Below are positions 27,408 through 64,000 of a stretch of 64,000 bases of DNA, piece after piece. This DNA is from Streptomyces sp. NBC_01408 (GTDB taxonomy: Bacteria; Actinomycetota; Actinomycetes; Streptomycetales; Streptomycetaceae), in NCBI RefSeq assembly GCF_026340255.1, contig NZ_JAPEPJ010000001.1:4309501-4373500 (forward strand), in the 5' to 3' direction. The notes beneath the pieces are model-generated. The model was not told where the DNA came from, made no database searches, and saw only the letters and a list, made by a program, of their open reading frames with translations. Both the position numbers and the translations under genes were made by a program. Each line of letters opens with the position of its first letter. Within the stretch, counting starts at the first letter, position 1.

Positions 27408-27453
27408 CGCCCCGGCACGATGTTGATCTTGTCCCGGAAGCTTGGTGATTCGT

Positions 27454-27756
27454 GTGCATCTGACACCGCACGAGCAGGAAAGACTGCTCATCCACGTGGC
27501 CGCCGACGTGGCCGCGAAACGCAGGGCCCGAGGGGTCCGCCTCAACCATCCCGAAGCGGTCGCCCTGATCACCTCGCACATCCTCGAAGGCGCCCGCGAC
27601 GGCCGCACCGTGGCCGAGCTGATGGCCTCCGGCCGTACCGTCCTGCGCCGCGAGGAGGTCATGGAGGGCATCCCCGAGATGATCCACGACGTCCAGGTCG
27701 AGGCGACCTTCCCGGACGGCACCAAACTCGTCACCGTCCACGACCCCATCGTCTGA
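27454..27756 (+). CDS. ureA: Urease subunit gamma
   Basis: A 100-residue subunit of the nickel enzyme urease (urea to ammonia and CO2). The sequence [38 protein letters not shown] and [18 protein letters not shown] is diagnostic. Start is put at the GTG giving the usual MxLTPHEQ opening; a GTG at 27445 and TTG at 27442 are in frame, with GGAAG just before them, and would add 3-4 residues. First gene of ureABCFGD. Confidence 0.94.
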
Positions 27757-27769
27757 AGGGCGAACCCGC

Positions 27770-28081
27770 ATGATCCCCGGCGAAATCGCCTACGGGGACG
27801 GCCCGGTGCTCCTCAACGAGGGCCGCCCCGTCACCCGTCTCGTCGTCCTCAACTCCGCCGACCGGCCCGTCCAGGTCGGCTCCCACTACCACTTCGCCGA
27901 GGCCAACCCCGGACTCGACTTCGACCGCCCCGCCGCCCGCGGGCTCCGGCTCAACGTCGCCGCCGGCACCGCCGTCCGCTTCGAACCGGGCATCCCGGTC
28001 GCGGTGGAACTCGTACCGCTGGGCGGACTGCGCACCGTAACGGGACTGCGCGGGGAGACCGGGGGGCCGCTCGATGGCTGA
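27770..28081 (+). CDS. ureB: Urease subunit beta
   Basis: A 103-residue subunit with the family pattern [35 protein letters not shown] and [14 protein letters not shown]. It starts 13 nt after ureA and its stop lies inside ureC, a short overlap typical of the operon. Confidence 0.94.
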
Positions 28082-29795
28082 GATCTCGCGCCAGGAGTAC
28101 GCCGACCTGTTCGGGCCGACCGCCGGTGACCGGATCCGGCTGGCCGACACCGACCTCTTCGTCGAGATCGAGGAGGACCTCAGTGGCGGACCCGGCCGGT
28201 CCGGCGACGAGGCGGTCTTCGGCGGCGGCAAGGTCATCCGCGAGTCCATGGGCCAGGCCCGCACCACCCGCGCCGAGGGGGCCGCGGACACCGTGATCAC
28301 CGGGGTCGTCGTCCTCGACCACTGGGGCGTCGTCAAGGCCGACCTCGGCATCCGCGACGGCCGGATCTGCGGCATCGGCAAGGCCGGCAATCCCGACACC
28401 ATGGACGGGGTGGACCCCGCCCTGGTCATCGGCCCGGAGACGGAGATCATCGCCGGCAACGGGAAGATCGTCACGGCCGGGGCCATCGACGCCCACGTGC
28501 ACTTCATCTCCCCGACGATCATCGAGGAGGCCCTGGCCTCGGGGATCACCACCCTCGTCGGCGGCGGCACCGGGCCGGCCGAGGGAACCAAGGCCACCAC
28601 CGTCACCCCCGGACCCTGGCACCTCGCCCGGATGTTCGCCGCGCTGGAGGCCTACCCCGTCAACATCGGTCTGCTCGGCAAGGGCAACACCATGTCCCGC
28701 GAGGGCATGCACTCCCAACTGCGCGGCGGCGCCCTCGGGTTCAAGATCCACGAGGACTGGGGGTCCACCCCCGCCGTCATCGACGCCTGCCTGAGCGTCT
28801 GCGAGGAGACCGGCGTCCAGGTCGCCATCCACACCGACACGCTCAACGAGGCCGGATTCGTGGGCGACACCCTCGCCGCCATCGGCGGGCGCACCATCCA
28901 CTCGTACCACACCGAGGGAGCCGGCGGCGGGCACGCCCCCGACATCATCACCGTGGTCTCCGAGCCGAACATCCTGCCCAGCTCCACCAACCCCACCCGG
29001 CCGCACACCGTCAACACCGTCGAGGAACACCTCGACATGCTGATGGTCTGCCACCACCTCAACCCGGCCGTCCCCGAGGACCTCGCCTTCGCCGAGTCCC
29101 GCATCCGGCCCTCGACCATCGCCGCCGAGGACGTCCTGCACGACCTCGGGGCGATCTCCATCATCTCCTCCGACTCCCAGGCCATGGGCCGCGTCGGCGA
29201 GGTCGTCCTGCGCACCTGGCAGACGGCCCACGTGATGAAGAAGCGCCGGGGCTTCCTGCCCGGCGACGGGCCCGCCGACAACCACCGGGCCCGCCGCTAC
29301 GTCGCCAAGTACACGATCAACCCGGCCGTGGCCCAGGGCCTCGCCCGCGAGATCGGCTCCGTCGAGACCGGCAAACTCGCCGACCTGGTCTTGTGGAACC
29401 CCGCCTTCTTCGGGGTCAAGCCCGAAGTGGTCATCAAGGGCGGCCAGATCGCCTACGCGCAGATGGGCGACGCCAACGCCTCCATCCCCACCCCCCAGCC
29501 GGTGCTGCCCCGGCCGATGTTCGGCGCCCACGGGCGCGCACCCGGCCTCAACTCGCTCAACTTCACCGCGCAGGCCGCACTCGACGACGGACTGCCCGAA
29601 CGGCTCGGACTCGGCAAGCAGTTCGTGGCCATCGAGAGCACCCGCAAGGTCAGCAAGTCGGACATGCGCAACAACGACGCCATGCCGAGGGTGGAGGTCG
29701 ATGCCGACACCTTCACCGTCAGCATCGACGGGGAAGCCGTGGAACCGGCGCCCGCGACCGAACTGCCCATGGCCCAGCGATACTTCCTCTTCTGA
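28074..29795 (+). CDS. ureC: Urease subunit alpha
   Basis: A 573-residue catalytic subunit, the usual length. Nickel ligands and carbamate are visible: HVHFISP (H141 and H143), the carbamylated Lys K224 in [10 protein letters not shown], and [12 protein letters not shown] and [13 protein letters not shown] with further His. The flap MVCHHLNP and [11 protein letters not shown] are also present. It starts with ATG overlapping ureB by 8 nt. All catalytic residues I can check are intact, so the enzyme should be active if supplied with nickel. Confidence 0.96.
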
Positions 29796-29811
29796 TGACG
29801 GGCCTCACCCG

Positions 29812-30486
29812 ATGAGCCTCGCCGCCCTGCTCGTCCTCGCCGACGGCCGCTTCCCCGCCGGGGGCCACGCCCACTCCGGCGGGGCCGAAGCCGCCTGCAA
29901 GGCGGGCCGGATCCGCGACGCGGCCACCCTGGAGGAGTTCTGCCGGGGCCGACTGCACACCGCGGGCCTCACCGCCGCCGGCCTCGCCGCCGCCGCGGCC
30001 CTCGGACTCGACCCGGCGGAGCTCGACGCCGCCGCCGACGCCCGCACCCCTTCGCCCGCGCTGCGCACCGCGGCCCGGCGGCTGGGCCGGCAGCTGATGC
30101 GGGCCGCCCGGGCCACCTGGCCCTCCCCCGAACTGGAGGAACTGGCCGCCGCCTTCCCGCGCGGAGCCCATCAGCCCGTCGTGCTCGGCGTCACCGCCCG
30201 GGCGGCCGGGCTCGGACCGCGCGACGCGGCGCACGTGGCGGCGTACGAGGCGGTCGGCGGGCCCGCGACCGCGACCGTCCGGCTGCTGGGCCTGGACCCC
30301 TTCGAGGCGAGCGGGGTCCTGGCCCGCCTCGCCCCGGAGCTGGACGCAGTCGCCGCCCGGGCGGAGCGGGCCGCGCTGCGCGCCCGCTCGGAGGGCCCGG
30401 ACGCCCTGCCCGCGGCCTCCTCACCCCTGCTGGAGATCGCGGCAGAGATCCATGCCGACTGGGCGGTACGGCTCTTCGCCTCCTGA
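29812..30486 (+). CDS. ureF: Urease accessory protein UreF
   Basis: A 224-residue all-helical GTPase-activating partner of UreG. The opening ALLVLADGRFPAGGHAHSGGAEAACKAG is the UreF hallmark. The rest is Ala-rich helix, as expected in actinomycetes. It begins 16 nt after ureC. Confidence 0.9.
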   Translation: MSLAALLVLADGRFPAGGHAHSGGAEAACKAGRIRDAATLEEFCRGRLHTAGLTAAGLAAAAALGLDPAELDAAADARTPSPALRTAARRLGRQLMRAARATWPSPELEELAAAFPRGAHQPVVLGVTARAAGLGPRDAAHVAAYEAVGGPATATVRLLGLDPFEASGVLARLAPELDAVAARAERAALRARSEGPDALPAASSPLLEIAAEIHADWAVRLFAS

Positions 30487-30531
30487 ACCGGCGCCCCGCC
30501 GGCCGTCCCGACCACCCCAAGGAGACCCCTG

Positions 30532-31227
30532 ATGCACCTCGACCACGCCGTGACCTACCCCCAGCGGCACACCCACGGCGCCGCGCCGCTGCGGGCCGAC
30601 GGCTCGCGCCGCGCCCTGCGCATCGGACTCGGCGGACCCGTCGGCTCCGGCAAGACCGCCACCGTCGCCGCGCTCTGCCGCGCCCTGCGCGCCGAGTTCT
30701 CCATGGCCGTCGTCACGAACGACATCTACACGCGGGAGGACGCCGAGTTCCTGCTCCGGGAGGCCGTGCTGCCGCCCGAGCGGATCACCGCCGTGGAGAC
30801 CGGGGCCTGTCCGCACACCGCCATCCGCGACGACATCTCCGCCAACCTGGAGGCCGTGGAAGAACTGGAGGAGGCCTTCCGGGAGAGCGGTCCGCTCGAC
30901 CTGATCCTCGTCGAGTCCGGCGGGGACAACCTCACCGCCACCTTCTCCCGCGGCCTGGCCGACGCCCAGATCTTCGTCATCGACGTGGCCGGCGGGGACG
31001 ACATCCCGCGCAAGGGCGGCCCCGGCGTCACCACCGCCGACCTCCTCGTCGTCAACAAGACCGACCTCGCCCCCCACGTCGGCTCCGACCTGGACCGGAT
31101 GGCCCGCGACGCCGCCGAGCAGCGCGGCGAACTGCCCGTCGCCTTCCAGTCGCTGCGCGGCCCGGACGGAGTGGCCCCGGTGGCCGCCTGGGTGCGCGAG
31201 CGGATCGCCGCCTGGACCGTACGGTGA
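30532..31227 (+). CDS. ureG: Urease accessory GTPase UreG
   Basis: A 231-residue SIMIBI GTPase that delivers nickel. It shows [18 protein letters not shown] (P-loop), [29 protein letters not shown] with the CPH metal motif, [12 protein letters not shown] and [12 protein letters not shown]. The N-terminus has several His ([15 protein letters not shown]) that may store nickel. AAGGAG precedes the ATG at 9 nt spacing. Confidence 0.95.
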
Positions 31228-32072
31228 CCAGCGCGCCCGCCCTCGCTCCGCCGGCCGCCGCCCCTTCCACCCCGCCGGCCCCCGTCCCGCCGGTCCCCGC
31301 CCCGGAGCCGCCGCCCGCGGCGGGCCTGCGCGCCACCGCCCGGATCCACGCCGTCGCCGACGGGCGCGGCTCCACCGCCCTGCCCCTGCTGGCCGGGGAG
31401 GGGCCGCTCGCGCTGCGCCGCACCCGCGGCCGCGGGGCCGAGGCCGGGGTCATGCTGGTCGGCGCGATGAGCGCCCCGCTGGGCGGGGACCACCTCACCG
31501 TCGAGGTCACCGCCGGGCCCGCGGCCCGCCTCGCCCTCGCCTCGGCGGCGGCGACGCTGGCGCTGCCCGGCCGAGGTGGCGAGCCCGCGCGGTACGACGT
31601 ACGGCTCGACCTGGCGGAGGGGGCCTCGGTGCGCTGGCTGCCCGAGCCGCTGGTCTCCGTGCGGGGCAGCGACCTGAGGGTGCGCACGCGGGCCGAACTC
31701 GCCCCCACCGCACGGCTGCTGCTGCGCGAGGAGCAGGTGCTGGGCCGGACCGGGGAGCCCCCGGGCCTGCTGCGCAGCCGGCTCACCGTCGGCCTCGGCG
31801 GCCGTCCGCTGCTGGACCAGGAACTCACCTGCGGGCCCGGGGCGCCCGGCGGCTGGGACGGCCCGGCGGGGCTGGCGGGCCACCGGGCGCTCGGCCAGCT
31901 CCTGGTCGTGGACCCGGCCTTCGCCGGGGCGCCGCCCGCGGCCGGGCCGCTGGGGGAGTTCGCCGCGGTGACCCCGCTGGCCGGCCCGGCCGTACTCGTG
32001 ACGGCCCTGGCCCCGGACGCCCTGCGGCTGCGTGAACTGCTCGACACGGCCCTGCGTTCCTACGGCTGGTGA
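31224..32072 (+). CDS. ureD: Urease accessory protein UreD
   Basis: A 282-residue scaffold protein that recruits apo-urease. It has [41 protein letters not shown] and [16 protein letters not shown]. Its GTG overlaps the ureG stop (GTGA). The N-terminal 40 residues are a Pro/Ala stretch. It ends the operon; ureE, the nickel chaperone, is absent, as usual in streptomycetes. Confidence 0.9.
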
Positions 32073-43634: not shown

Positions 43635-45731
43635 TCAGCCGGTGGACGCTGCCGCGCCGCCCAGGAACGCCGCCTCGAAGGCGGCGTCGCCGATCGCCTC
43701 CCGGGCCTGGCGTTCGCCCTGGTCCCGCAGGGCCGTCAGTGAGGGCGAGCCCATCTGTGGCCTGCCCACCGTGCGCCACCAGGCGTGCCCCGTGCCCAGC
43801 AGGCGGGCCGCCAGTTCCCCGTCACCCAGCGCCGCCACCGCCGCCGCCAGCAGGTCCAGCCCCAGCGCGATGCCGAAGCGGTCGCCGAGCAGCCGTTTCC
43901 CGGAGAGCATCGCCCTTACGTGCCGGGCGGCCTCCCCGTGGTGGCCGAGGCCCAGCGCCGACACCGCCAGGATGTAGTCCGCGTACGCCCGCAGCCAGCG
44001 CTCGCCCAGCTCCGCGCAGGCCTCCCGCAGGGCCCGGGCCTCCTCGGCCGCCTCCTCGTAGCGCTGGAGGTCGCACAGGGCGTACCCGGTGGCCAGCCGG
44101 CACAGGAGCCAGCCGGGCGCGCTGGTCCGGCCGCCGTGGCCCGCCCGGGCCCGCGGACCGGCGAGTTCCAGGGCCCGTACGGGGTCCCCAGGCATGAGCA
44201 CCGCCACGGCGTGCAGATAGGCCGCCCGCAGCTCCCGCTCGGGATCCGCCAGCCGGGCCGCCTCCCGGGTGCACTCCAGGCCCAGCTCCCGGGACGCGGC
44301 CAGGTCGCCCTGGAGCAGGGTCGTCAGCCCGAGCGCCCACAGCGCCTGGGTGTACGCGGCCCCGGTGTGCGGGGCGGCCCGCAGCGCCCGCTCGAGGAAG
44401 TTCCGGCCCTCGTGGACGTGCCCGCACGCGAACCAGAAGAACCACAGGGCCCCGGCCATTTCCAGCGCGGCCGTCGGGTCGGAGCCCAGCAGGTGCTCCA
44501 GGGCCGTACGCAGCTGCGGGTGCTCGGCGGTCGTCCTGCGGTACCAGTCCACCTGGGCCGGGCCAAGCCAGCCGCGGTCGGCGGCCTGGCAGAGGGCCGC
44601 GTACCAGTGGGCGTGGCGGTCGGCGGTGATCCGGACCTCGCCGAGCTCCTCCAGCCAGTCGTGCCCGTACTCGCGGATCGTGTCGAGCATCCGGTAACGG
44701 GTCCCGGCGCCCCGCTCGTCGGTGCACCGGACCACCGACTTGGCGACCAGGCCCGCCAGGACCCGCTCCACCCGCGAGGCGGGCAGCGGCCCGCCGGCGC
44801 ACACGGCGCGGGCCGCGGCGACGTCGAAGTCCCCGGTGAAGACGGAGAGCCGGGCCCACAGCAGGCGTTCCACCGGCTCGCACAGTTCGTGGCTCCAGCC
44901 GATCGTGGTCCGCATCGTCTGGTGCCGGGGCGGCAGCGCGGCCGGGGCGCCGGACAGCACGTCCAGGCGCGTGCCGAGCCGCTCGGCCATCTGCTCCAGG
45001 GTCCACAACCGCAGCCGGGCGCCGGCGAGTTCCAGCGCGAGCGGGATCCCGTCCAGGCGGCGGCACACCTCGACCGCGACGGCGGACCGCTCGGGGTCCT
45101 CGAAGGCGGCCGCAGCCCGGGCGGTCGCGGAGAGGGCGCGGGCCCGGAAGAGGACGAGGGCGTCGCTGTCGGGCCCCTCGCAGGGCAGCGGGCGGACTTC
45201 GACGAGGGTCTCGCCGGGGGAGCCGAGCGGCTCCCGGGAGGTGATCAGCACCGTCAAGCCAGGTGCGGACTGGAGGAGTTCGCCCACGAGGTGCCGGCAG
45301 TCGGCCACCAGGTGCTCGCAGGTGTCGAGGACGAGGAGGAGTTCCTTGTCGGCCATCCAGGCGCACAGCTCCTCGTCGAGGGGGCGCGCGGAGTGGTCGG
45401 CGAGGCCCACGGCGTGGGCGACCGTGGTGGTGAGCAGGCTGGGGTCGCGCAGCGGTGACAGCTCCACCCACCAGACGCCGTCGGGCCGCGCCTGGCGGGC
45501 GTCGGTGACGGCGCGCAGGGCGAGGCGGGACTTGCCCACACCGCCCACCCCGGTGAGGGTGACCAGTCTTCGCTCCCGCAACAGGTCGTGGATCAAGCCG
45601 AGTTCGTTCTCCCGGCCGACGAAGCTCGCCGATTCCGGCGGCAGGTTTCCCGGCACGGCGCCAGAGTCTGGCGCAGCGCCGCCGCCCGCGGATCCTGCCT
45701 GATTGTTGTTGACCGAGTACTCACCGAACAC
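43635..45731 (-). CDS. AfsR/LuxR-related NTPase with TPR-like C-terminus (no DNA-binding domain seen)
   Basis: A 698-residue STAND-type protein. The NB-ARC-like domain reads ESASFVGRENELGLIHDLL, TLTGVGGVGKSRLALRAV (Walker A), LLLVLDTCEHLV (Walker B) and VLITSREPLGSPGE. A helical TPR-like part follows (residues ~370-650). Related streptomycete proteins carry a SARP or LuxR DNA-binding domain; I find neither here, so it may act through a partner. GTG start. Standalone, downstream of the Fn3 lipoprotein gene on the same strand. Confidence 0.8.
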   Translation of the reverse strand: MFGEYSVNNNQAGSAGGGAAPDSGAVPGNLPPESASFVGRENELGLIHDLLRERRLVTLTGVGGVGKSRLALRAVTDARQARPDGVWWVELSPLRDPSLLTTTVAHAVGLADHSARPLDEELCAWMADKELLLVLDTCEHLVADCRHLVGELLQSAPGLTVLITSREPLGSPGETLVEVRPLPCEGPDSDALVLFRARALSATARAAAAFEDPERSAVAVEVCRRLDGIPLALELAGARLRLWTLEQMAERLGTRLDVLSGAPAALPPRHQTMRTTIGWSHELCEPVERLLWARLSVFTGDFDVAAARAVCAGGPLPASRVERVLAGLVAKSVVRCTDERGAGTRYRMLDTIREYGHDWLEELGEVRITADRHAHWYAALCQAADRGWLGPAQVDWYRRTTAEHPQLRTALEHLLGSDPTAALEMAGALWFFWFACGHVHEGRNFLERALRAAPHTGAAYTQALWALGLTTLLQGDLAASRELGLECTREAARLADPERELRAAYLHAVAVLMPGDPVRALELAGPRARAGHGGRTSAPGWLLCRLATGYALCDLQRYEEAAEEARALREACAELGERWLRAYADYILAVSALGLGHHGEAARHVRAMLSGKRLLGDRFGIALGLDLLAAAVAALGDGELAARLLGTGHAWWRTVGRPQMGSPSLTALRDQGERQAREAIGDAAFEAAFLGGAAASTG

Positions 45732-55209: not shown

Positions 55210-56217
55210 CTACACCGTGCCCCGGGCCTGCTCCAGGCGGCGCAGTACCCGCAGTTCCGCCGCCTCGACGTCCAGCCGGGCGGCCGGGTCGCCGCCGCGC
55301 CCGCGGACGGCGGCCCGTACCAACGCCAGGTAGAAGAGAGCGGGCGCGCACGGGGACCAGGCCTCGGCGGGCTTGTCCAGCATGAAGGACAGCACCGCAT
55401 CGGGATCGGCGGGTACGAAGGCGTACTCGTCGTGCTCCCACTTGTCCTCGACGCCCCGGCTCCAGCGGCGGCGCAGCGCCTCCTCGTCCAGGTCCTGGAG
55501 TTCGGCGCTGAAGAAGGCCGCCCACTGGTTGTTGCGCAGGTCCAGCCCGAAGCCGAGCAGCTCCAGGTCCACGGGGTCGGTCTCCTGGACCGCCAGCTCC
55601 TCGCGCAGGGCGCGGCGGGCCACGGCGTGCAGGCTGATCCGGCCGTCGGGCGCCAGGTCGTGGATGGCCGCCAGTCCCTCGTTCGCCGAGGAGTTCCAGC
55701 GCGACCGGTTGGGACCGACGACCTTGGAGCTGCGGTGCGAGAACAGCACCTTGCCGTCCGGGCCGGTGCGCACGGCGACGTTCACGCCGAAGCTGCAGAA
55801 CATGTACGGCGGCGCGTCGACCGGGTCCTGGCTCTCCAGGTATTGCTCGCGCAGCGTCAGCCCGTTCTTCTGGGCGCGGTCCAGGTTGATGGACGTGGTG
55901 AGGAAGTCGTAGTAGTCCGCGTCGCGCAGGGTGAGCGTGGCGACCGGCGCCTCCTGGTTGTCCGTACGCGTCACGACCAGCCGGTCCACGGCGAAGCGGG
56001 GGTTGTTCCAGCGGTGCGGCAGGCCCGCCGCCTCCTTGCGCCGCTCCTCGTCCTCGATGGCCCGCCGCCAGCCCGCGATCTCCTCGGGGAACTCCACCCG
56101 CTCCGGAACGTGGTGGACGCGGACGTTCTCCTCGCTGATCGGACGCGTCCCGTCCCCCTCGAAGACATGGCAGTCGGTCTGCCGGCCGGCCAGACTGAAC
56201 CTGTCGCGCTGCGCCAT
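55210..56217 (-). CDS. Nudix-like protein divergent from the caspase-like gene
   Basis: A 335-residue soluble protein. Its middle (~residues 150-265) looks like a Nudix fold: beta strands, then the helix ARRALREELAV, which keeps the paired Glu of the Nudix box, then LLGFGLDLRNNQWAAFFSAEL. The first Glu and the GG of the box are missing, so hydrolysis is doubtful and nucleotide-derivative binding possible. The N-terminal third (~150 residues) is charged and unrecognised. ATG at 56217 with GAAGGGAC upstream; only 35 nt separate it from the divergent caspase-like start. Confidence 0.7.
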   Translation of the reverse strand: MAQRDRFSLAGRQTDCHVFEGDGTRPISEENVRVHHVPERVEFPEEIAGWRRAIEDEERRKEAAGLPHRWNNPRFAVDRLVVTRTDNQEAPVATLTLRDADYYDFLTTSINLDRAQKNGLTLREQYLESQDPVDAPPYMFCSFGVNVAVRTGPDGKVLFSHRSSKVVGPNRSRWNSSANEGLAAIHDLAPDGRISLHAVARRALREELAVQETDPVDLELLGFGLDLRNNQWAAFFSAELQDLDEEALRRRWSRGVEDKWEHDEYAFVPADPDAVLSFMLDKPAEAWSPCAPALFYLALVRAAVRGRGGDPAARLDVEAAELRVLRRLEQARGTV

Positions 56218-56252
56218 CAAAGTCCCTTCACGCATGGGTAGTTGATGAGAGT

Positions 56253-59200
56253 ATGACCCAGGCTGAGGATCTCGGGGGAGGGGCCTGGGTGGGGGTGGGG
56301 GGCGTGTCCCGGCTCGCGGAACGCGGCGCGTACCGGCGTGAAGGACTGATCGCGACGGTCGCCGTCGCCGAGTACGACCATCCCGCGCGGCCCGGCGGCC
56401 GCGAGACCCTCGCGCACGTCGAGGGCGTCCGCGGCCGGGTCGCCGAACTCGCCGGCGGGCGGCTGGGGTTCGGACACCGGATGCGGCTGGACGACGCCGG
56501 GACCACTCGCGCCGGACTGTGGGCCGGACTCGACGCCTTCCGGGCGCACGGCGCGCGCCGCAAGATCCTGTACTGGACGGGCCACGGCATCGACCGGGGC
56601 GCCGCGGGCTACTTCCTGGCCTGCCGCGACACATGGGCCGCGGGCGGCTTCGACGGCGGCCGGGCGCTCGCCGTCACCGACCTGGTCGACCGCCTCCTGG
56701 ATCCCGCCGACGGGGCCGACACCCTGCTGGTCATCGACGCCTGCTCGGCGCACGGCCACCTGCCCGAGGCCCTCGACCGCGCCCTGAGCAAGGAGCGTGA
56801 GGCCGTCGGACGGGCCTACCGCGAGCGTGCGGGCGGTTTCGTCGTGGTCGGTACGTCGGGCGTCGGCCGGGTCATCCCGGAGGGCCGCTGGGTGGAGTGG
56901 CTGGAGCAGGTGATCGCCAGCCCCGACCTGGAGATGAAGGACCACGCCAGACCCCTGGACCCCTCGGCCCTCTACCTGCCCGTGCAGTACCTGCTGGAGG
57001 GGATCGACGGGGCCGCAGCCGCATCCGGGCTGGACGAGCCGGAGGAGCGGCCGGGCCACGTAGAGGTCCGCTCGCTGCCCAACAGCTTCCTGCACAACCC
57101 GTACTACGCCGACGAGGGGGAGGTGCGCGGCACGGCCCTGCTCGGGGACGACGACCCCTACCCCTGGCTGGGCGCCGAGCACTTCGGGCTGGAGGACGGC
57201 GGCGAACTGGAGCGGACCTTCTCCGGCCGGCACGGGCCGCTGAGCCGGCTGGTCCGCTGGCTGGAGACCTACCAACAGGGACTGCTCGTGGTCACGGGTC
57301 CCGCCGGCTGCGGGAAGACCGCCCTGCTCGGACGCCTCGCCCTGATGTCCGTCCCCCGCAAGTGCGACCGGCTGGACCCGCCGCCGCCCCCGCAGGTACG
57401 CCCGCGCCCCGGCACCGTCCACGCCCTCGTCTCCTGCCGGGGCCAGTCCCTGACCACCCTGACCAGAGCCCTGTGGGAGCTGCTCACCGCCTTCGAGGGC
57501 ATGGCCGCCCCGCCGGCGGGCACGGTCACGGTGCAGCACACCCTCGCGGCGATCGGCGCGCTCGTGGCCCGCGAAGGCGCCGTCAACCTCGTCTTCGACG
57601 GCCTGGACGAGGCGATGCCCGAGCAGGGCCACGAGATCGCCCGCCACCTGCTCAACCCGCTCTCGCGCAGTGCGGGCGTCAAGGTCGTCGTCGGCACCCG
57701 CCCCCAGCCCCGCCAGCAGATCGCCTACCGGGAGCCGGACGAGAGCCTGTTGCAGACCCTGGACCGGACGGCCCCCTCCCTGGTCCTCGACGAGGACGAG
57801 GAGACCGAGCGGGACATCGCCGACATGGTGGAGGCCGTCCTCGCCACGGAGGGATCGCCGTACGCGGAACCGGGCGCCGAGGCCGAGCGGACCGCCGCCG
57901 CCACGCGCATCGCCGAGGAGAGCGGCCGGCTGTTCCTGATCGCCCGGCTCATCGCCGCCGAACTGGTCCGCCGCCCGCGGCGCGTTCCCGAGGACCGGCT
58001 GGTGGAGCACATCCGGGCCGGCGGCGCCGGACTGCGCGACCGGCTCGCCGACGAGATCGGCCACCTCAGCGCCGCCGGAACCCTGCGCACCGCCGAACTC
58101 CTGCGCCCCCTGGCCCTCGTCCAGGGCCCGGGCCTGTCCCACGGGACCGCCGAGGACAGCGGGCTCTGGCTCGGCCTGGCCAACGCCCTGCGCGACGACG
58201 GCACCCCCGAACTCGACCCCCAGGCCCTGCGCCGCGTCCTCACCGCGGCCACCGGAAGCCTCGTGACCGGGCAGGTGGAACCCGAAGGCGGCACGGCCTG
58301 GTGCCTGGCCCATCCCAGCTACGGGGCCTACCTCCTGGAGAGCGCCGGTCTGGACCCCGCCGACGGACACCGCCGCCTCGTCGACACCCTGCGCGCCCAG
58401 GACGCGGACGCCTGGGAGCAGGCCCACCCCTACGTCCGCCGGTACCTGGGGGCGCACGCCGCGGGCGCCGGCTCCGGCCTGCTGGAACTGCTCTTCGACG
58501 ACCCGGACTTCCTCGTGCACACCGACCCGGACGTGCTGCTGCCGCTCACCACCGCGGTGCTGCGCGACTGCGAGGGCGCGGCCCTGTACGCGCGCGTCGC
58601 CGACGAGTTCCGCTTCCGCACCACCGCCGGGGAACGCCGGGCCCTGCTCCTCGCGACGGCGTTCGTCAGCCACCGCCCCGGCCTGTACGCACGATTACGC
58701 GCCCGGCCGGGTTTCGCCGCCCTGCCGTGGCGCGAACTGTGGACCGACGCGCCTCCCGAACCGCTGGAGCTGCGCTGGCCGGCCCCGCTCGGCGGGGCCC
58801 GCGCCGTGAGCTGGAGCGCCGCCGACCGGGGGCGGACGCTCTCCGTCGCCGGCCAGGGCGAGATCGTGGTGCAGGACGCGTTCACCGGCAAACGCCTCCT
58901 CACCCGCCGCACCACCGTGGAGCGCGGCGGTCGGCGCGAGGCACTCACCGAGGTCCGGGAACTGGGCACCGGAGCCCACCGGGTGACGGCCGCGCGCGAC
59001 AGCGGGGCCGTCCACTTCTGGGTCGGACCCGAACGCCTCCCCTCACAGGCCTACCGGTGGGGCGGCGCGCCGCACAGTCTGACGGCCGTCCGGTGCGAGG
59101 ACACCGCGCTGACCGTGGTGGCCGACGGCCGCCTCACCTGGGCCTGGCGCTGGCCGTACCAGGGCCGCCCCGGCGACGGCGGCCTCGCGGACGTCAGCGA

Positions 59201-60758
59201 CGCCGCCGCCGGGCGGACCGCCCTGCTCCACCTGGACGGCCGCAGCTTCCTGCTCCTGGCCGGCACCGACGTGACCCTGCGCGAGCTGCACCCCAAGGCC
59301 CGCGGCGGAGCCGGACTCCTCGGCGGGAGCTGGGTGCTGCGCGAGGGCGGCAGACCGGTCTACGCGGCCGGGGCCCTGCCCGACGCCACGGGCGGCGCCG
59401 CCTGGCTGGCCGCGGCCGACGGCCAGACGGTGACGGTGTGGCGGCTCACCCTCGGCCCGGACGGGACCGCCACCGCCGGCCCCGGCTGGGGGACCCCGCT
59501 CACCCTCGGCTCCAAGGCCCGCGGCCTGGCCCTGGGCCGGCTCGGGGACCGGCCCGCGATTGCCCTGCACGAGGGCGGGGCGGTCCGGATCCGGGTCCTG
59601 GACGAGGCCGCGCTGGAGTGCTCCTTCCCGCTGCGCAGCCAGCGCGAGCCCGAGGCCCTCGCCTTCGACCCGGGCGGCTCGGGCCTGGTCGCCGCCGGTG
59701 ACGGGCCCGACGTACGGCTGCTGGACGCCGCCTCCGCCGTGCGCGCGGGCCGCCGGGCCCGGCGCCGCGCCCACCACGAGCGTCCCGTGGTCGCGCTGGC
59801 CGCCGGACCCGGCGAAGCCGCCCTGCTGTGCCGGGCCTGGGGCGGCGAGGTCCTCGTAGGCCTCACGGCCGGGCCGGGCGCCGCGGCGGACCCGGTGGTC
59901 CTGCCGCACGAGCACGCCGTCACCGCCGTACGGGCCCTGGGGGACGCGGGCCAGTGGGTGGTGGCGGTGGCGGCGGGCCGGCGCATCCACCTGTGGCGGC
60001 TCGCCGCCGGGCTCGGGACGTACGAGCAGGGGGAACCGCTCGAACTGGGCGGAGACGCGGGCGCCAAGGTGCCCGGGATCGGCCTCACCGCCGCCGACGG
60101 CGCGGTGCGGCTCTTCGTCCCGGTGGGCGGCGGGGTGAAGTGCTGGACCGCCACGGGCACGCACCTGCGGGAGGCCGGCTCCGCGCACGCGGGGATCCTG
60201 GTCTGCGGCCTCGCGGCGCGCACCATGCGGGACGGTTCCACCTGGGTCGTCACGGACGTGGGCGACCGGTACCGGCTGTGGCGCGGCACGTACGACGGAC
60301 TCGCCGAGGCGGGCGGCACCCAGGTCTGGCACCCCACCGCACCGGCCGTCCTGGGCGAGTACCTCGTGGACGGCGAGTCGATCCCGCTGCTCGCCTGGGC
60401 CGAGGGCCCCCTGGTCCAGCTCGCCGATTGCACCGGCAGACGCTGGAAGCGGACCACCGTCCAGGCGGGGGCGCCCGGCCCCACGGTGCTGGCCTTCTCC
60501 GGCGGCCCCGAGCGCCCCCTGCTCCTGACCGGCGGGGGCGAACGCTCCCTGACCGTCTGGGACGTGCGCCACGGAGCCTGGCTGCCCGAACTGACCGTCC
60601 CCTACCGCGGCATGGACGTGGCCACCCTCGAAGCCGTCTTCGACGAGGAGCGCGGCATCACGCTCGCGCTCCAGGCGCTCCAGCGCTGCGACCTGGTCCG
60701 GCTGCGCGCCGCCCTGCCGCCCCGCCCGCCGGGGCGCAGGAGAACGGCGCGCCTGTGA
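56253..60758 (+). CDS. Caspase-like / STAND-type ATPase / beta-propeller protein
   Basis: A 1501-residue three-part protein. (1) Residues ~1-240 form a caspase-like (C14) peptidase: H111 in ILYWTGHGID and C164 in LLVIDACSAHG. (2) Residues ~325-520 are a NACHT/STAND-like ATPase: Walker A VVTGPAGCGKTALL (K355), Walker B VNLVFDGLDEA (D449), then VKVVVGTRP. An all-helical stretch follows. (3) Residues ~830-1490 are degenerate WD40-like blades (GSGLVAAGDGPDVRLLDAAS; LTGGGERSLTVWDVRHG). Such proteins sense something with the propeller, oligomerise through the ATPase and activate the protease. No Shine-Dalgarno is evident. The LCAT-like gene follows. Confidence 0.85.
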   Translation: MTQAEDLGGGAWVGVGGVSRLAERGAYRREGLIATVAVAEYDHPARPGGRETLAHVEGVRGRVAELAGGRLGFGHRMRLDDAGTTRAGLWAGLDAFRAHGARRKILYWTGHGIDRGAAGYFLACRDTWAAGGFDGGRALAVTDLVDRLLDPADGADTLLVIDACSAHGHLPEALDRALSKEREAVGRAYRERAGGFVVVGTSGVGRVIPEGRWVEWLEQVIASPDLEMKDHARPLDPSALYLPVQYLLEGIDGAAAASGLDEPEERPGHVEVRSLPNSFLHNPYYADEGEVRGTALLGDDDPYPWLGAEHFGLEDGGELERTFSGRHGPLSRLVRWLETYQQGLLVVTGPAGCGKTALLGRLALMSVPRKCDRLDPPPPPQVRPRPGTVHALVSCRGQSLTTLTRALWELLTAFEGMAAPPAGTVTVQHTLAAIGALVAREGAVNLVFDGLDEAMPEQGHEIARHLLNPLSRSAGVKVVVGTRPQPRQQIAYREPDESLLQTLDRTAPSLVLDEDEETERDIADMVEAVLATEGSPYAEPGAEAERTAAATRIAEESGRLFLIARLIAAELVRRPRRVPEDRLVEHIRAGGAGLRDRLADEIGHLSAAGTLRTAELLRPLALVQGPGLSHGTAEDSGLWLGLANALRDDGTPELDPQALRRVLTAATGSLVTGQVEPEGGTAWCLAHPSYGAYLLESAGLDPADGHRRLVDTLRAQDADAWEQAHPYVRRYLGAHAAGAGSGLLELLFDDPDFLVHTDPDVLLPLTTAVLRDCEGAALYARVADEFRFRTTAGERRALLLATAFVSHRPGLYARLRARPGFAALPWRELWTDAPPEPLELRWPAPLGGARAVSWSAADRGRTLSVAGQGEIVVQDAFTGKRLLTRRTTVERGGRREALTEVRELGTGAHRVTAARDSGAVHFWVGPERLPSQAYRWGGAPHSLTAVRCEDTALTVVADGRLTWAWRWPYQGRPGDGGLADVSDAAAGRTALLHLDGRSFLLLAGTDVTLRELHPKARGGAGLLGGSWVLREGGRPVYAAGALPDATGGAAWLAAADGQTVTVWRLTLGPDGTATAGPGWGTPLTLGSKARGLALGRLGDRPAIALHEGGAVRIRVLDEAALECSFPLRSQREPEALAFDPGGSGLVAAGDGPDVRLLDAASAVRAGRRARRRAHHERPVVALAAGPGEAALLCRAWGGEVLVGLTAGPGAAADPVVLPHEHAVTAVRALGDAGQWVVAVAAGRRIHLWRLAAGLGTYEQGEPLELGGDAGAKVPGIGLTAADGAVRLFVPVGGGVKCWTATGTHLREAGSAHAGILVCGLAARTMRDGSTWVVTDVGDRYRLWRGTYDGLAEAGGTQVWHPTAPAVLGEYLVDGESIPLLAWAEGPLVQLADCTGRRWKRTTVQAGAPGPTVLAFSGGPERPLLLTGGGERSLTVWDVRHGAWLPELTVPYRGMDVATLEAVFDEERGITLALQALQRCDLVRLRAALPPRPPGRRRTARL

Positions 60759-60796
60759 TCGGCCCCACCCCACCGGCTTCCGTCACGCGCACACCA

Positions 60797-60824
60797 CCAC
60801 CGGCACACCGCCACCGGCACACCG
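60797..60824. repeat. 14-bp tandem repeat, two units
   Basis: CCACCGGCACACCG occurs twice in tandem in the 100-nt gap between the caspase-like gene and the lipase gene. No other structure is seen there. Confidence 0.5.
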
Positions 60825-60858
60825 CCCCCACCTCGACCACTGAACGGGAGAACCCGCC

Positions 60859-62316
60859 TTGCGCCACGACCTCGTCGTCTACGTCCCCGGCATCCTCGGC
60901 AGCCGCCTCACCCGCGACGGCAAGGACGTATGGCACCAGTCCCTGCGCACGGCGCTGCACATGGCCAAGGAGCTGGCGGTCCATCCGCGCGGTCCGGGCG
61001 CGGCCTTCGACCGGCTCGCGCTGCCGCCGGGCATCGGGGACCACCGGCCCGAGACGCCCTGGGAGGTCGCGGCCGACGGGCTGGTCAAGACGCCGTCCGC
61101 GCTGCCGGGCCTGCTGTCCTTCCTCGGCTATCCCGACATCCGGGCCATGGCCGGGGACCTGCACGAGGAGCAGTACCTCGCCTTCACCTACGACTGGCGG
61201 CTCTCGAACCGGCTCACCGCGGCCGACCTGAAGACCGCCGTCGAACGCGCCCTGACCCGGTGGCGTGAGCGCGTGCGCGACCACTATCCGCAAGCCGCCG
61301 ACGAACCCCGGGTGATCTTCCTGTGCCATTCCATGGGCGGCCTCGTCACCCGCTACTACCTGGAGTGCCTCGGCGGCCGGGACACGGCCCGCTCCCTGGT
61401 CACCCTCGGGACCCCGCACCGGGGAGCCGCCAAGGCGGTGCGCTTCCTGACCCGCAACGGCATCGGCCCCGGTGACGACCAGCGGCTGCTGGGGCGCAAG
61501 GCGCTCACCCTGGCCGGGAAATGGCTCAACCCCGCCCTCGCCGAGCTGTGCCGCGGCTTCCCCTCCGTCGGGCAGCTGCTGCCCGTGTACAAGGCCGTGA
61601 TGCTGCCCGGCCTGACCCGCACCCGCTACCTCGACGACGAGGGCATCGCCGTACCGGACCTCCCCTCGGAGCTGGTCAAGGACGCTTTCGCCTTCCACAC
61701 CGAGTTCGAGGACGCGCTCGCGCGCAACCGGCGCCGCAGCGGGGAGAGCGGGCTCCCGTACAAGGTCCACTGTCTGGGCGGGCGCTCCCACCCCACCGTC
61801 CACGGCGTCCTGCTGGCCCCGGAAGGCCTGAAGTTCCCCACCGCGCTCGACGACGCGGAACCGTGGACCGGCGACGGCACGGTGCCCGAGGAGTCGGCGT
61901 TCGCCGGGTGGGCCCTGGAGGAGATGAGCGACGCGGTCTGGAGCGGACACCGGCACGTGGACCTGACCGGTGCGGACACCGTGGGGCACCAGCTGTCGGC
62001 CATCGTCCGGGGCCGCGGCGCCGGCCAGACGCTCACCGGCGAGGAGGAGTTCGGCGTCCTCGCGCCCGAATTCTCGGTGACGGGCGAGCCGTTCGAGGTC
62101 CTGGTCGAGGGAGCCCGGTCCGGCCGGCCCGTCAGCGTCAGCCTGTCCGCGTCCGGGGGCGGGCCGGCCGGCGAACCGGTCCCGCTCACCCCCGACGGCA
62201 GCGGCCTGCTGCGCGCCGCGCTCACGGCACCGTCCGCCGGCACGTGGGTGCTGCGGCTGGAGGCCCAGGGCCCCTACGCCGTGCACCGCGAGGTCCTCAC
62301 GGTCGTGGACGCGTGA
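60859..62316 (+). CDS. LCAT-like alpha/beta hydrolase (lipase/acyltransferase)
   Basis: A 485-residue protein without signal peptide. It starts VVYVPGILGSRLTRDGKDVW, the LCAT/PDAT opening. The nucleophile is S158 in FLCHSMGGLVTRYYLE; the first Gly of the usual GHSMG is Cys. The acid is probably D339 in GDGTVPEESA and the His H364 or H366 in GHRHVDLTG. A ~90-residue C-terminal beta domain follows (EEFGVLAPEFSVTGEPFEVLVEG). TTG start with GGGAG. It lies 100 nt after the caspase-like gene on the same strand. A membrane-lipid-cleaving effector is a plausible but unproved role. Confidence 0.83.
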   Translation: MRHDLVVYVPGILGSRLTRDGKDVWHQSLRTALHMAKELAVHPRGPGAAFDRLALPPGIGDHRPETPWEVAADGLVKTPSALPGLLSFLGYPDIRAMAGDLHEEQYLAFTYDWRLSNRLTAADLKTAVERALTRWRERVRDHYPQAADEPRVIFLCHSMGGLVTRYYLECLGGRDTARSLVTLGTPHRGAAKAVRFLTRNGIGPGDDQRLLGRKALTLAGKWLNPALAELCRGFPSVGQLLPVYKAVMLPGLTRTRYLDDEGIAVPDLPSELVKDAFAFHTEFEDALARNRRRSGESGLPYKVHCLGGRSHPTVHGVLLAPEGLKFPTALDDAEPWTGDGTVPEESAFAGWALEEMSDAVWSGHRHVDLTGADTVGHQLSAIVRGRGAGQTLTGEEEFGVLAPEFSVTGEPFEVLVEGARSGRPVSVSLSASGGGPAGEPVPLTPDGSGLLRAALTAPSAGTWVLRLEAQGPYAVHREVLTVVDA

Positions 62317-62344: not shown

Positions 62345-63196
62345 TCAGTCCTCGCAGGTGGGCACCCCTTCCAGCCACGCGGCCCCACGGACGTAGATGT
62401 TGCTGACCCAGGCCCGGTAGTCGGGCAGGTAGGACCAGGCGTCGTTGGTGTAGCCGTCCGAGGTGACCTCCTCCGCGTGCTTCTGGCAGCCGACCCGGAT
62501 CGTCGTCGGCCCGGGGAAGGCGTAGACGCGTTCGGCCCGGACGGACGGCTGGGCCTTGGTCCAGACTCCGGTGCCCCATGTCTGGAAGACGTGACCGGTC
62601 ACCGGACCCGCGTCGATCCGGACCGCGCCGTAGTAGTCGCCGGACAGCCGGACGTCACTGACCATCAGCTTCGTGCCGGACTGGCGGGCCTCGGCCATCT
62701 TGCCCGCACCGAGGTAGACGGCGATGTGGTGCAGCTGCCGGGAGGTGCCCCACACCAGCAGGTCACCGGGGAGCAGCGGGCCGAGGCCCTGGGCGGCGGT
62801 GAAGCGTCCGGCGGCCCGGTGCGTGTAGTACTGGCTGCTGGCGACCCCGTTGAGGATGTCCGACCCGGCGGCCTGGGCGTAGGCGTGGCGGACCAGCCCC
62901 GAGCAGTCGAAACCCAGCCGCTCGGGATCGTGTTCGCTGGCCGGGTCGCTCGGGTCCACCTGCCCGTACGTGGCACCGGGCTGCGGACCGTGGCCGCCGC
63001 CCCAGGTGTACCAGACGTCGGCGTCGACCTGCGCGCAGGCCGCGGCGACGGCTCTTTCGGCGGTGGCGGAGGCTCCCGGCGCCCGTACGGCACACGAGCC
63101 GTCGGCGGCGGCCGCCGGGGAGGGCGCGGAGAGGGGGAGGGCGAGCAGGGCGAACAGGGCGATGAGCGGGCCGAAGAGAGTGGACCGGCGCAGCAT
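62345..63196 (-). CDS. Secreted NlpC/P60 family hydrolase
   Basis: A 283-residue exported protein. Signal peptide ~31 residues (FALLALPLSAPSPAAAADG). The catalytic domain has YTWGGG, LGFDCSGLVRHAY (C98) and LHHIAVYLG (H156 or H157), as in endopeptidases that cut peptidoglycan stems. The last ~60 residues (VGCQKHAEEV to YRAWVSNIYVRG) look like an SH3-type wall-binding domain. Convergent with the LCAT-like gene. Confidence 0.88.
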   Translation of the reverse strand: MLRRSTLFGPLIALFALLALPLSAPSPAAAADGSCAVRAPGASATAERAVAAACAQVDADVWYTWGGGHGPQPGATYGQVDPSDPASEHDPERLGFDCSGLVRHAYAQAAGSDILNGVASSQYYTHRAAGRFTAAQGLGPLLPGDLLVWGTSRQLHHIAVYLGAGKMAEARQSGTKLMVSDVRLSGDYYGAVRIDAGPVTGHVFQTWGTGVWTKAQPSVRAERVYAFPGPTTIRVGCQKHAEEVTSDGYTNDAWSYLPDYRAWVSNIYVRGAAWLEGVPTCED

Positions 63197-63417
63197 GCGG
63201 GGCCTCGATTCTGTGTGGGGTCGGTCGTCGGACGCGGATCTCGGGAGGGGCCGGGCGGGTCGCCCTGCGCTCGCCCGTGCAGTTCGTGCGGCGCTCCCCC
63301 CGACGCAGCCTGGGGGCCGCCGCCCCCGCGCGTCGAGGCTCCGGCGGCGCACCACCCGAACGGGCAACGGGAAACCCCTGGGAAACCCCCGCCCGGCCGA
63401 CCGGGGGAGCACCCGCG

Positions 63418-64000
63418 TCACGACTCCTCGCACGCGGGACCGGCGGAGCCGGAGGAGCCGGGCAGGAGCGCGGCCGACCGCCGCGCGCCGAGCTCCGCGC
63501 GCAGCCGGCAGATCTCCGCCAGCCGCTCTCCGGCGTCCAGGTCCCACAGCCGCACGGTCCCGTCGGTGCTGCTGCTGGCCACCGTCCGCCCGTCGGGTGC
63601 GAAGACGACGCCCCACACCGCGTTCGAGTGCCCCGTCAGCGTGGCCGCGAGCCGGCGCCCGGCCACGTCCCACAGCCGCACCGTACGGTCGTTGCCGCTG
63701 GACGCGAGCGTGCGCCCGTCGGGGGAGAAGGAGATGCCCCGCGCGGAACCGGTGTGCCCCGTCAGCTCCGCCACGAGGAGGTGCCGCCCGGCGTCCCACA
63801 GGCGTACGGTCCCGTCGTTGCCGCTGCTCGCCAGGGACCGGCCGTCCGGGCCGAAGGCCACCCCCCGCACCGCCCCCGTATGACCGGTGAGCGTGGCCAG
63901 CGGACGGCGGGCCGGCACGTCCCACAGCCGCACGGTCAGATCGTCGCCGGCGCTCGCCAGGGTGCGCCCGTCGGGGCTGAACACCACGTCGTTGGCGAAG
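63418..64000 (-). CDS. WD40-repeat protein, C-terminal part only
   Basis: The gene enters from beyond the right edge and ends at 63418. Four consecutive WD40 blades are visible (VVFSPDGRTLASAGDDLTVRLWD and GHTGAVRGVAFGPDGRSLAS, repeated), ending with an amphipathic tail (LAEICRLRAELGARRSAALL). Blades are near-identical, unlike the degenerate ones of the caspase-like protein. Streptomycete proteins of this kind often have an N-terminal protease or NTPase domain; that part is outside the window. Confidence 0.85.
   Translation of the reverse strand, partial: FANDVVFSPDGRTLASAGDDLTVRLWDVPARRPLATLTGHTGAVRGVAFGPDGRSLASSGNDGTVRLWDAGRHLLVAELTGHTGSARGISFSPDGRTLASSGNDRTVRLWDVAGRRLAATLTGHSNAVWGVVFAPDGRTVASSSTDGTVRLWDLDAGERLAEICRLRAELGARRSAALLPGSSGSAGPACEES

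Follow-up and report, generated by a model that had tools for sequence, protein, structure and literature searches.

The metazoan apoptosome and inflammasome (APAF1, NLRs) join an NTPase switch, a propeller or repeat sensor and a caspase output, and TIR-caspase Thoeris carries a linked TIR gene. In the article sections covered here, further bacterial systems are described. In canu, a MALT1-like caspase activates a linked pro-enzyme, an MBL-type nuclease, which gives an experimental precedent for a bacterial caspase-to-effector cascade (PMC12799240). The CARD-NLR systems (Lysobacter; LypABC of Caulobacter) comprise a protease, an NLR-like ATPase and an effector, phospholipase effectors included (PMC13236601). 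From multicellular actinobacteria, Kaur et al. (2020) reported EACC1-caspase systems and the VMAP (MoxR-vWA) ternary systems, in which the caspase always has a neighbouring alpha/beta-hydrolase, and named Nudix as a possible NAD/ADPr handler (PMC7159879).

The window, i.e. the whole stretch of 64,000 nucleotides of Streptomyces sp. NBC_01408 that was analysed, has a GC content of 0.70-0.78 per 4 kb and carries, towards its end, three genes that form a conserved, self-contained module. Its features are the following.

55210..56217, minus strand: NUDT22-like gene (predicted Nudix fold), 335 aa, with the Nudix-box remnant RRALREELAV.
56218..56252: intergenic gap of 35 nt between divergent ATG starts (~70 nt should the GTG at 56289 be the caspase start).
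56253..60758, plus strand: gene for a caspase - NACHT/STAND NTPase - WD40-like propeller protein, 1501 aa.
56310..57107, plus strand: predicted caspase-fold domain, residues ~20-285, with H111 (56583-56585) and C164 (56742-56744), from AF2, Foldseek, VIA and alignments.
57210..57752, plus strand: NACHT/STAND NTPase core, residues ~320-500, with Walker A K355 and Walker B D449, from Pfam NACHT and AAA_22.
58770..60704, plus strand: degenerate WD40-type propeller region, residues ~840-1484, from profile matches to solved WD40 propellers.
60859..62316, plus strand: LCAT-like alpha/beta-hydrolase lipase, 485 aa, TTG start, with S158, D339 and H366, from Pfam LCAT.

The module and its related loci share with the systems of Kaur et al. 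the multicellular actinobacterial host and the recurring STAND, propeller, SLATT and pentapeptide parts, but here protease, NTPase and propeller lie in one protein, and a divergent NUDT22-like gene is not mentioned in the covered sections of that article, supplements being outside scope (PMC7159879). The module does not belong to the EACC1 two-gene system, whose defining parts are a caspase of the EACC1 type and, upstream of it, an EACC1 protein with a single TM segment: the NF047832 model scored 14.9 bits against a cut-off of 140, and the upstream neighbour shows no hydrophobic segment and has a predicted NUDT22 fold. VMAP membership was likewise rejected, as no MoxR, vWA or EACC1 gene was found among the five window proteins scanned with Pfam and none is common to most of the related loci. 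CARD-NLR systems, as described in the covered sections, use a trypsin-like protease and a CARD, whereas the window has a protease domain of predicted caspase fold, fused to NACHT and a propeller, and an LCAT lipase; membership was rejected on the protease. The canu effector is an MBL-type nuclease, and the covered sections describe neither a STAND-propeller fusion nor a NUDT22 protein (PMC12799240); no MBL-type pro-nuclease and no TIR were found among the five scanned window proteins, so that the defining parts of canu and TIR-caspase Thoeris are missing there, TIR fusions being present only in relatives. The likeness to the apoptosome and inflammasome is an analogy only, the window protein holding protease, switch and sensor in one chain with a lipase as putative effector. 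The parts and the plan are of known kinds, and among the papers listed by a literature search, with supplements outside its scope, none treats this fixed NUDT22/caspase-STAND/LCAT combination.

The 1501-residue protein described in an earlier note on this DNA is encoded at 56253-60758, and H111, C164, K355 and D449 stand where they had been placed. On the minus strand, the frame starting at MAQRDRF places the Nudix-like gene at 55210-56217 and leaves 35 nt to the ATG at 56253; the 474-aa version of this frame in the ORF list was rejected because its start is placed too far upstream. The head-to-head arrangement over 35 nt therefore stands between the ATG starts. The nearest homologues of the caspase protein are from Streptomyces sp. 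NPDC048255 (96%) and S. xanthophaeus (87%). Since conserved caspase sequence sets in around residue 16-20 and the closest two homologues are shorter by 15 and 17 residues, the GTG near 56289 is a plausible alternative start, and the gap as given in the note may widen to ~70 nt. The lipase starts 100 nt past the caspase stop, and its TTG start is supported by the 29 of 30 aligned homologues that begin at one common column. Elsewhere in the window we observed an NlpC/P60 peptidase frame just downstream of the module (62345-63925, minus strand) and, by eye, a WD40-repeat frame that runs off the window end (63418-64000, minus strand), a urease gene run (27442-32072) and a separate STAND-type regulator frame (FVGRENEL..GVGGVGKS, 43635-45731).

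We then examined the large protein domain by domain. As the caspase claim had rested on motifs, residues 1-320 were modelled with AF2 from an alignment of 34 rows, giving a pLDDT of 87.0 and a pTM of 0.84. Among the 50 Foldseek and 50 VIA matches listed for this model, all were caspases, paracaspases or metacaspases; the predicted fold together with the His/Cys dyad places the domain in the caspase superfamily (clan CD). Over the window protein and 53 homologues, H111 is conserved in 53/54 (one gap) and C164 in 51/54 (P0147, P0164 and P0165 differing), and both K355 and D449 in 54/54. In 43 genome loci the corresponding counts are 42 for His, 41 for Cys and 43 for each Walker residue, a set that is biased toward an intact His because one of the two scan patterns, ILYWTGHG, contains the His motif. 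The catalytic pair, whose loss from an alignment would have spoken against the earlier proposal, is thus conserved. The central part scored 27.2 bits with Pfam NACHT (cut-off 26.7) and 35.3 bits with AAA_22 (cut-off 27), which, with the Walker A and B residues, identifies a STAND/NACHT NTPase as proposed. The propeller is of a degenerate WD40 type: WD40 remained below threshold in Pfam (E 0.0026), and the family profile of the C-terminal part matched solved WD40 propellers (PkwA, E 4.5e-15). It is also the least conserved part of the protein, with a mean identity of 0.41 compared to 0.48-0.52 for the other parts.

The lipase scored 31.3 bits with Pfam LCAT (PF02450; cut-off 21) and possesses the S158/D339/H366 triad, and the above-cut-off profile and the Ser-Asp-His triad bear out the LCAT-like assignment made from the letters. 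A simple hydropathy scan, which includes no signal-peptide prediction, showed no hydrophobic segment. By eye, the C-terminal domain is beta-rich. One relative, P0284, is an LCAT lipase fused to TIR.

The upstream neighbour gave nothing above cut-off in Pfam, and its profile matched no PDB sequence at E 1 or E 10. Its NUDT22 likeness was revealed solely by fold search, in which human NUDT22 matched the window protein over nearly its full length at 17-18% identity in the structural alignment; the predicted model thus points to a NUDT22 fold across the full chain. The window protein differs in being bacterial and linked to a caspase-STAND gene. Its Nudix-box remnant retains R202, E206 and E207, the usual first Glu being Ala203, and human NUDT22 itself has a non-conventional Nudix box (PMC5688067, in the part covered). 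The label Nudix-like hence stands as to the predicted fold and is narrowed to NUDT22-like with a degenerate box. The protein shows no hydrophobic segment. It is the most conserved component of the three, with a mean identity of 0.68 compared to 0.45 and 0.48 for the other two. A relative, P0115, has a NUDT22-like domain fused to TIR, and in two further NUDT22-like relatives, P0076 and P0088, an N-terminal segment resembles, by eye, a degenerate kinase lobe. Public databases mostly name this family 'translation initiation factor 2', a name for which we found no support.

The multi-component arrangement was investigated in 43 loci, obtained from one genome scan with the caspase alignment through two peptide patterns, which favours close relatives. 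The Nudix-like gene lies head-to-head with the caspase gene in 40 of them, and 38 present both neighbours in the order Nudix(-)/caspase-STAND(+)/lipase(+), so that the caspase-like gene does not mostly lack its neighbours and the multi-component claim holds; every one of the 38 loci with a downstream lipase also has the Nudix gene. Among the remainder, the contig ends before the lipase position in L028 and L036, L040 is a short fragment of a metagenome-assembled genome with neither neighbour seen, and L042 is a distant relative (26%) with the lipase upstream and no Nudix. The one open, full-length caspase-STAND gene with neither neighbour, L026 (9491-14605), has lost its catalytic Cys, with DIR in place of DAC. 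The lipase match begins at most 10 nt from the caspase stop in 20 of the 38 loci that have both neighbours, which points to an operon.

Hardly any flanking gene recurs from one locus to another, and where one does, the loci are for the most part related ones, in twos or small sets; no further gene is common to most of the 43 flanks. The gene calls came from a crude GC3 caller, which also served for the neighbourhoods of the second NUDT22-like group below and for the window frames read by eye; two of its clusters, c4 and c7, are artefacts that lie antisense within the Nudix gene. The pairwise distances of the three proteins co-vary, with Pearson coefficients of 0.957, 0.941 and 0.969 and Spearman coefficients of 0.940, 0.921 and 0.914, species kinship included, over 39 rows. 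These rows are the complete three-gene loci drawn from L001-L043, L070, L072 and the window, with L021, L037 and L042 dropped.

A Nudix profile run against 246 genomes of the genus, which overlap the 43 loci, matched 29 at E 1e-3 and 26 strongly. The strong matches number 27, of which 15 are system-type and 12 belong to another group (G091 has one of each), so that occurrence is patchy, with system-type Nudix in 15/246 genomes. Scored from this side, a caspase-STAND relative is adjacent in 14 of the 15, those in G034, G039, G082 and G242 being only 27-30% identical, and a lipase follows in 12, the caspase of G034 and G039 running into the contig end; in G195 the system-type Nudix has neither. 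A sample spanning the class gave matches at E 1e-20 in 4 of 296 genomes: the centre genome G001, two of the caspase-free group, and L088, an N-terminally truncated Nudix remnant with neither caspase nor lipase. Where carriers of the Nudix and the lipase are named, they belong to Streptomyces, Kitasatospora and a handful of further filamentous actinomycetes, among them Streptosporangium, Nonomuraea and Actinocorallia. The Nudix gene was also found on five plasmid records, of which S. clavuligerus pSCL4 carries the Nudix, caspase, lipase and pentapeptide genes, the NBC_01724 plasmid a Nudix with neither caspase nor lipase beside an IS5 transposase, and the NBC_01361 plasmid a Nudix of the caspase-free group. 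The unrelated flanks, the co-divergence and the plasmid copy support a self-contained module that is probably horizontally mobile.

The second NUDT22-like group (L055-L066, 12 loci) shows no caspase or lipase in the fetched stretches. Ten of these loci share one conserved chromosomal neighbourhood, six of the 12 matches are listed with one internal stop, and L057, the one examined, has an N-terminal hydrophobic segment. Caspase-free Nudix genes were also found in L069, plasmid L075 and the truncated L088.

To place the lipase in its wider family, its profile was run against 121 genomes of the genus, which gave 40 matches, seven of them from the Nudix system. For 20 of the other 33 the surroundings were fetched: an adjacent ORF matched the NTPase profile in 11 (L119, L120, L122, L123, L125, L126, L132-L134, L137 and L138), eight of which also matched the caspase profile, and none of the 20 contained a NUDT22 match. 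The lipase comes first in seven of these pairs, three are divergent, and the caspase comes first in one (L119). Judged by regular expression only, the His motif was present in two and the Cys motif in none of the eight caspase-profile ORFs, and these caspase domains may accordingly be divergent or inactive. As they occur without NUDT22, the pairs indicate that the combination of LCAT and STAND extends beyond this module, which agrees with the pairing of caspases and alpha/beta-hydrolases in the covered sections of Kaur et al. (PMC7159879), and it is the NUDT22 partner that marks the lineage of the window module. No gene pair is strictly obligatory, since both caspase-free Nudix genes (L069, L075, L088) and Nudix-free LCAT-STAND pairs exist.

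Two sub-lineages carry an additional membrane protein. In nine of the 43 loci (L029, L031, L033-L035, L038, L039, L041 and L043) a two-TM gene homologous to DUF4231, which we take to be the SLATT family, stands beside the NUDT22-like gene; of two members scanned with Pfam, one scored above cut-off and one below. In 18 of the 43, the gene after the lipase encodes a protein with pentapeptide repeats and a hydrophobic segment at its C-terminus, as judged from a Pfam scan of one member and hydropathy scans of three. Ser to Ala/Gly and/or His to Asn changes break the lipase triad in 15 of the 18 loci (L008-L017, L019, L021, L027, L030 and L032), whereas it is intact in L003, L004 and L007. No such break was seen in 24 further lipases, which come from the window, L070, L072 and 21 of the 43 loci. 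The clade with the dead lipase carries the TM protein and has kept its caspase dyad; L021 combines the His-to-Asn change with a disrupted caspase frame. In a quick caspase tree of 39 rows, with L021 outside and a long L070 branch that raised a long-branch warning, the pentapeptide gene was gained once (17 rows) and lipase death is nested within that clade (14 rows). The nesting implies about one event rather than 15, which the Fisher p for the association leaves out of account, and an effector swap as statistically proven was therefore rejected, the tree needing just one gain and one loss. Nevertheless, membrane protein first, lipase decay second and dyad kept is the order that effector replacement predicts, which suggests a swap. 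With the triad broken in 15/18 loci of one clade, lipolysis is not required in every version.

A function in cell death or conflict is most likely, and we lean, with some reserve, towards a cell-death module of the NLR/apoptosome-like kind, made up of three genes, horizontally mobile and found in Streptomyces and its close relatives. In its favour we count the conserved order, the signs of mobility, the co-divergence, the conserved dyad and Walker residues, the variable propeller and the effector decay, together with the single case of L026, which lacks both neighbours and also lost its Cys. Against it count that PADLOC returned no hit, that no phage record showed a Nudix match and that the lipase triad is broken in one clade. 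By analogy with canu (PMC12799240) and the CARD-NLR phospholipases (PMC13236601), as covered here, we infer a path from sensing through the caspase to a membrane-acting executor. The trigger sensed by the propeller would probably be a foreign cue or one of damage; the NACHT/STAND NTPase may then oligomerise, and induced proximity would activate the N-terminal caspase, which could switch on the neighbouring membrane-attacking effector by proteolysis. This effector would be the LCAT-like lipase in the window version, with the DUF4231/SLATT two-TM or the pentapeptide-repeat/TM protein as putative added effector in the sub-lineages, and the outcome would be membrane damage and the death or arrest of the hyphal compartment. 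The NUDT22-like protein may act enzymatically on a nucleotide, possibly a UDP-sugar, or sense it, and in this way set or release a brake. The TIR fusions P0115 and P0284 and the DUF4231 neighbours fit nucleotide-linked conflict systems.

It is possible, though not probable, that the Nudix protein is instead an antitoxin or brake that counteracts caspase-STAND toxicity, either directly or through the destruction of an activating nucleotide, with no sensing. The divergent gene in 40/43 loci, its strongest conservation among the three components and its absence from L026, where the caspase Cys is lost, agree with such a brake, but L026 is a single natural case, Nudix persists without caspase elsewhere, and the TIR fusion P0115 suggests a sensor or effector-linked role.

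An unlikely reading is surveillance of the envelope, in which the NUDT22-like protein reads pools of UDP-sugars, the precursors of the cell wall, and caspase and lipase together remodel or kill upon envelope attack by, for example, antibiotics or competitors. The predicted fold would suit it, NUDT22 converting UDP-glucose, whose hydrolysis is known for the human enzyme (PMC10101856, in the part covered), as would partner proteins that are lipases or TM-bearing; the Nudix box, however, is degenerate, and NUDT22-like proteins also occur away from caspase genes.

Developmental programmed death, whereby the module would kill or recycle the substrate mycelium during sporulation with no phage role, appears unlikely as well. 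Although the named carriers are all filamentous actinomycetes and class-wide Nudix matches are only 4/296 (E 1e-20), a function at the core of development would be expected in nearly all genomes and in conserved synteny, and system-type Nudix is found in 15/246 genomes of the genus, the module sitting at changing sites and having a plasmid copy. Chance neighbours of unrelated function, which the caspase alone in L026 and the Nudix without caspase in L069, L075 and the fragment L088 might recall, are highly improbable and were rejected on the order shared by 38/43 loci despite unrelated flanks and on the co-divergence.

The cell-death module has a more specific form, tentative and somewhat unlikely as it stands, namely a bacterial immune module akin to an inflammasome, with nucleotide-sugar (UDP-sugar-like) chemistry as its gate. 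The NUDT22-like protein would make, destroy or read the signal that licenses the caspase-NLR, and the membrane effectors, a lipase, a SLATT-type pore or a pentapeptide/TM protein, would be interchangeable. We know of no earlier immune role for the NUDT22 fold, and this would, if true, be the first. The NUDT22 link offers an unexpected, testable nucleotide-sugar angle on cell-death systems of bacteria, and it gives the proteins now labelled 'translation initiation factor 2' their first structural framework. What was a guess from a single genome is now a defined recurrent module whose sub-lineages can be tested side by side, and a caspase-STAND-propeller protein with a dedicated lipase provides a compact model of the way in which caspases could bring about killing in bacteria.
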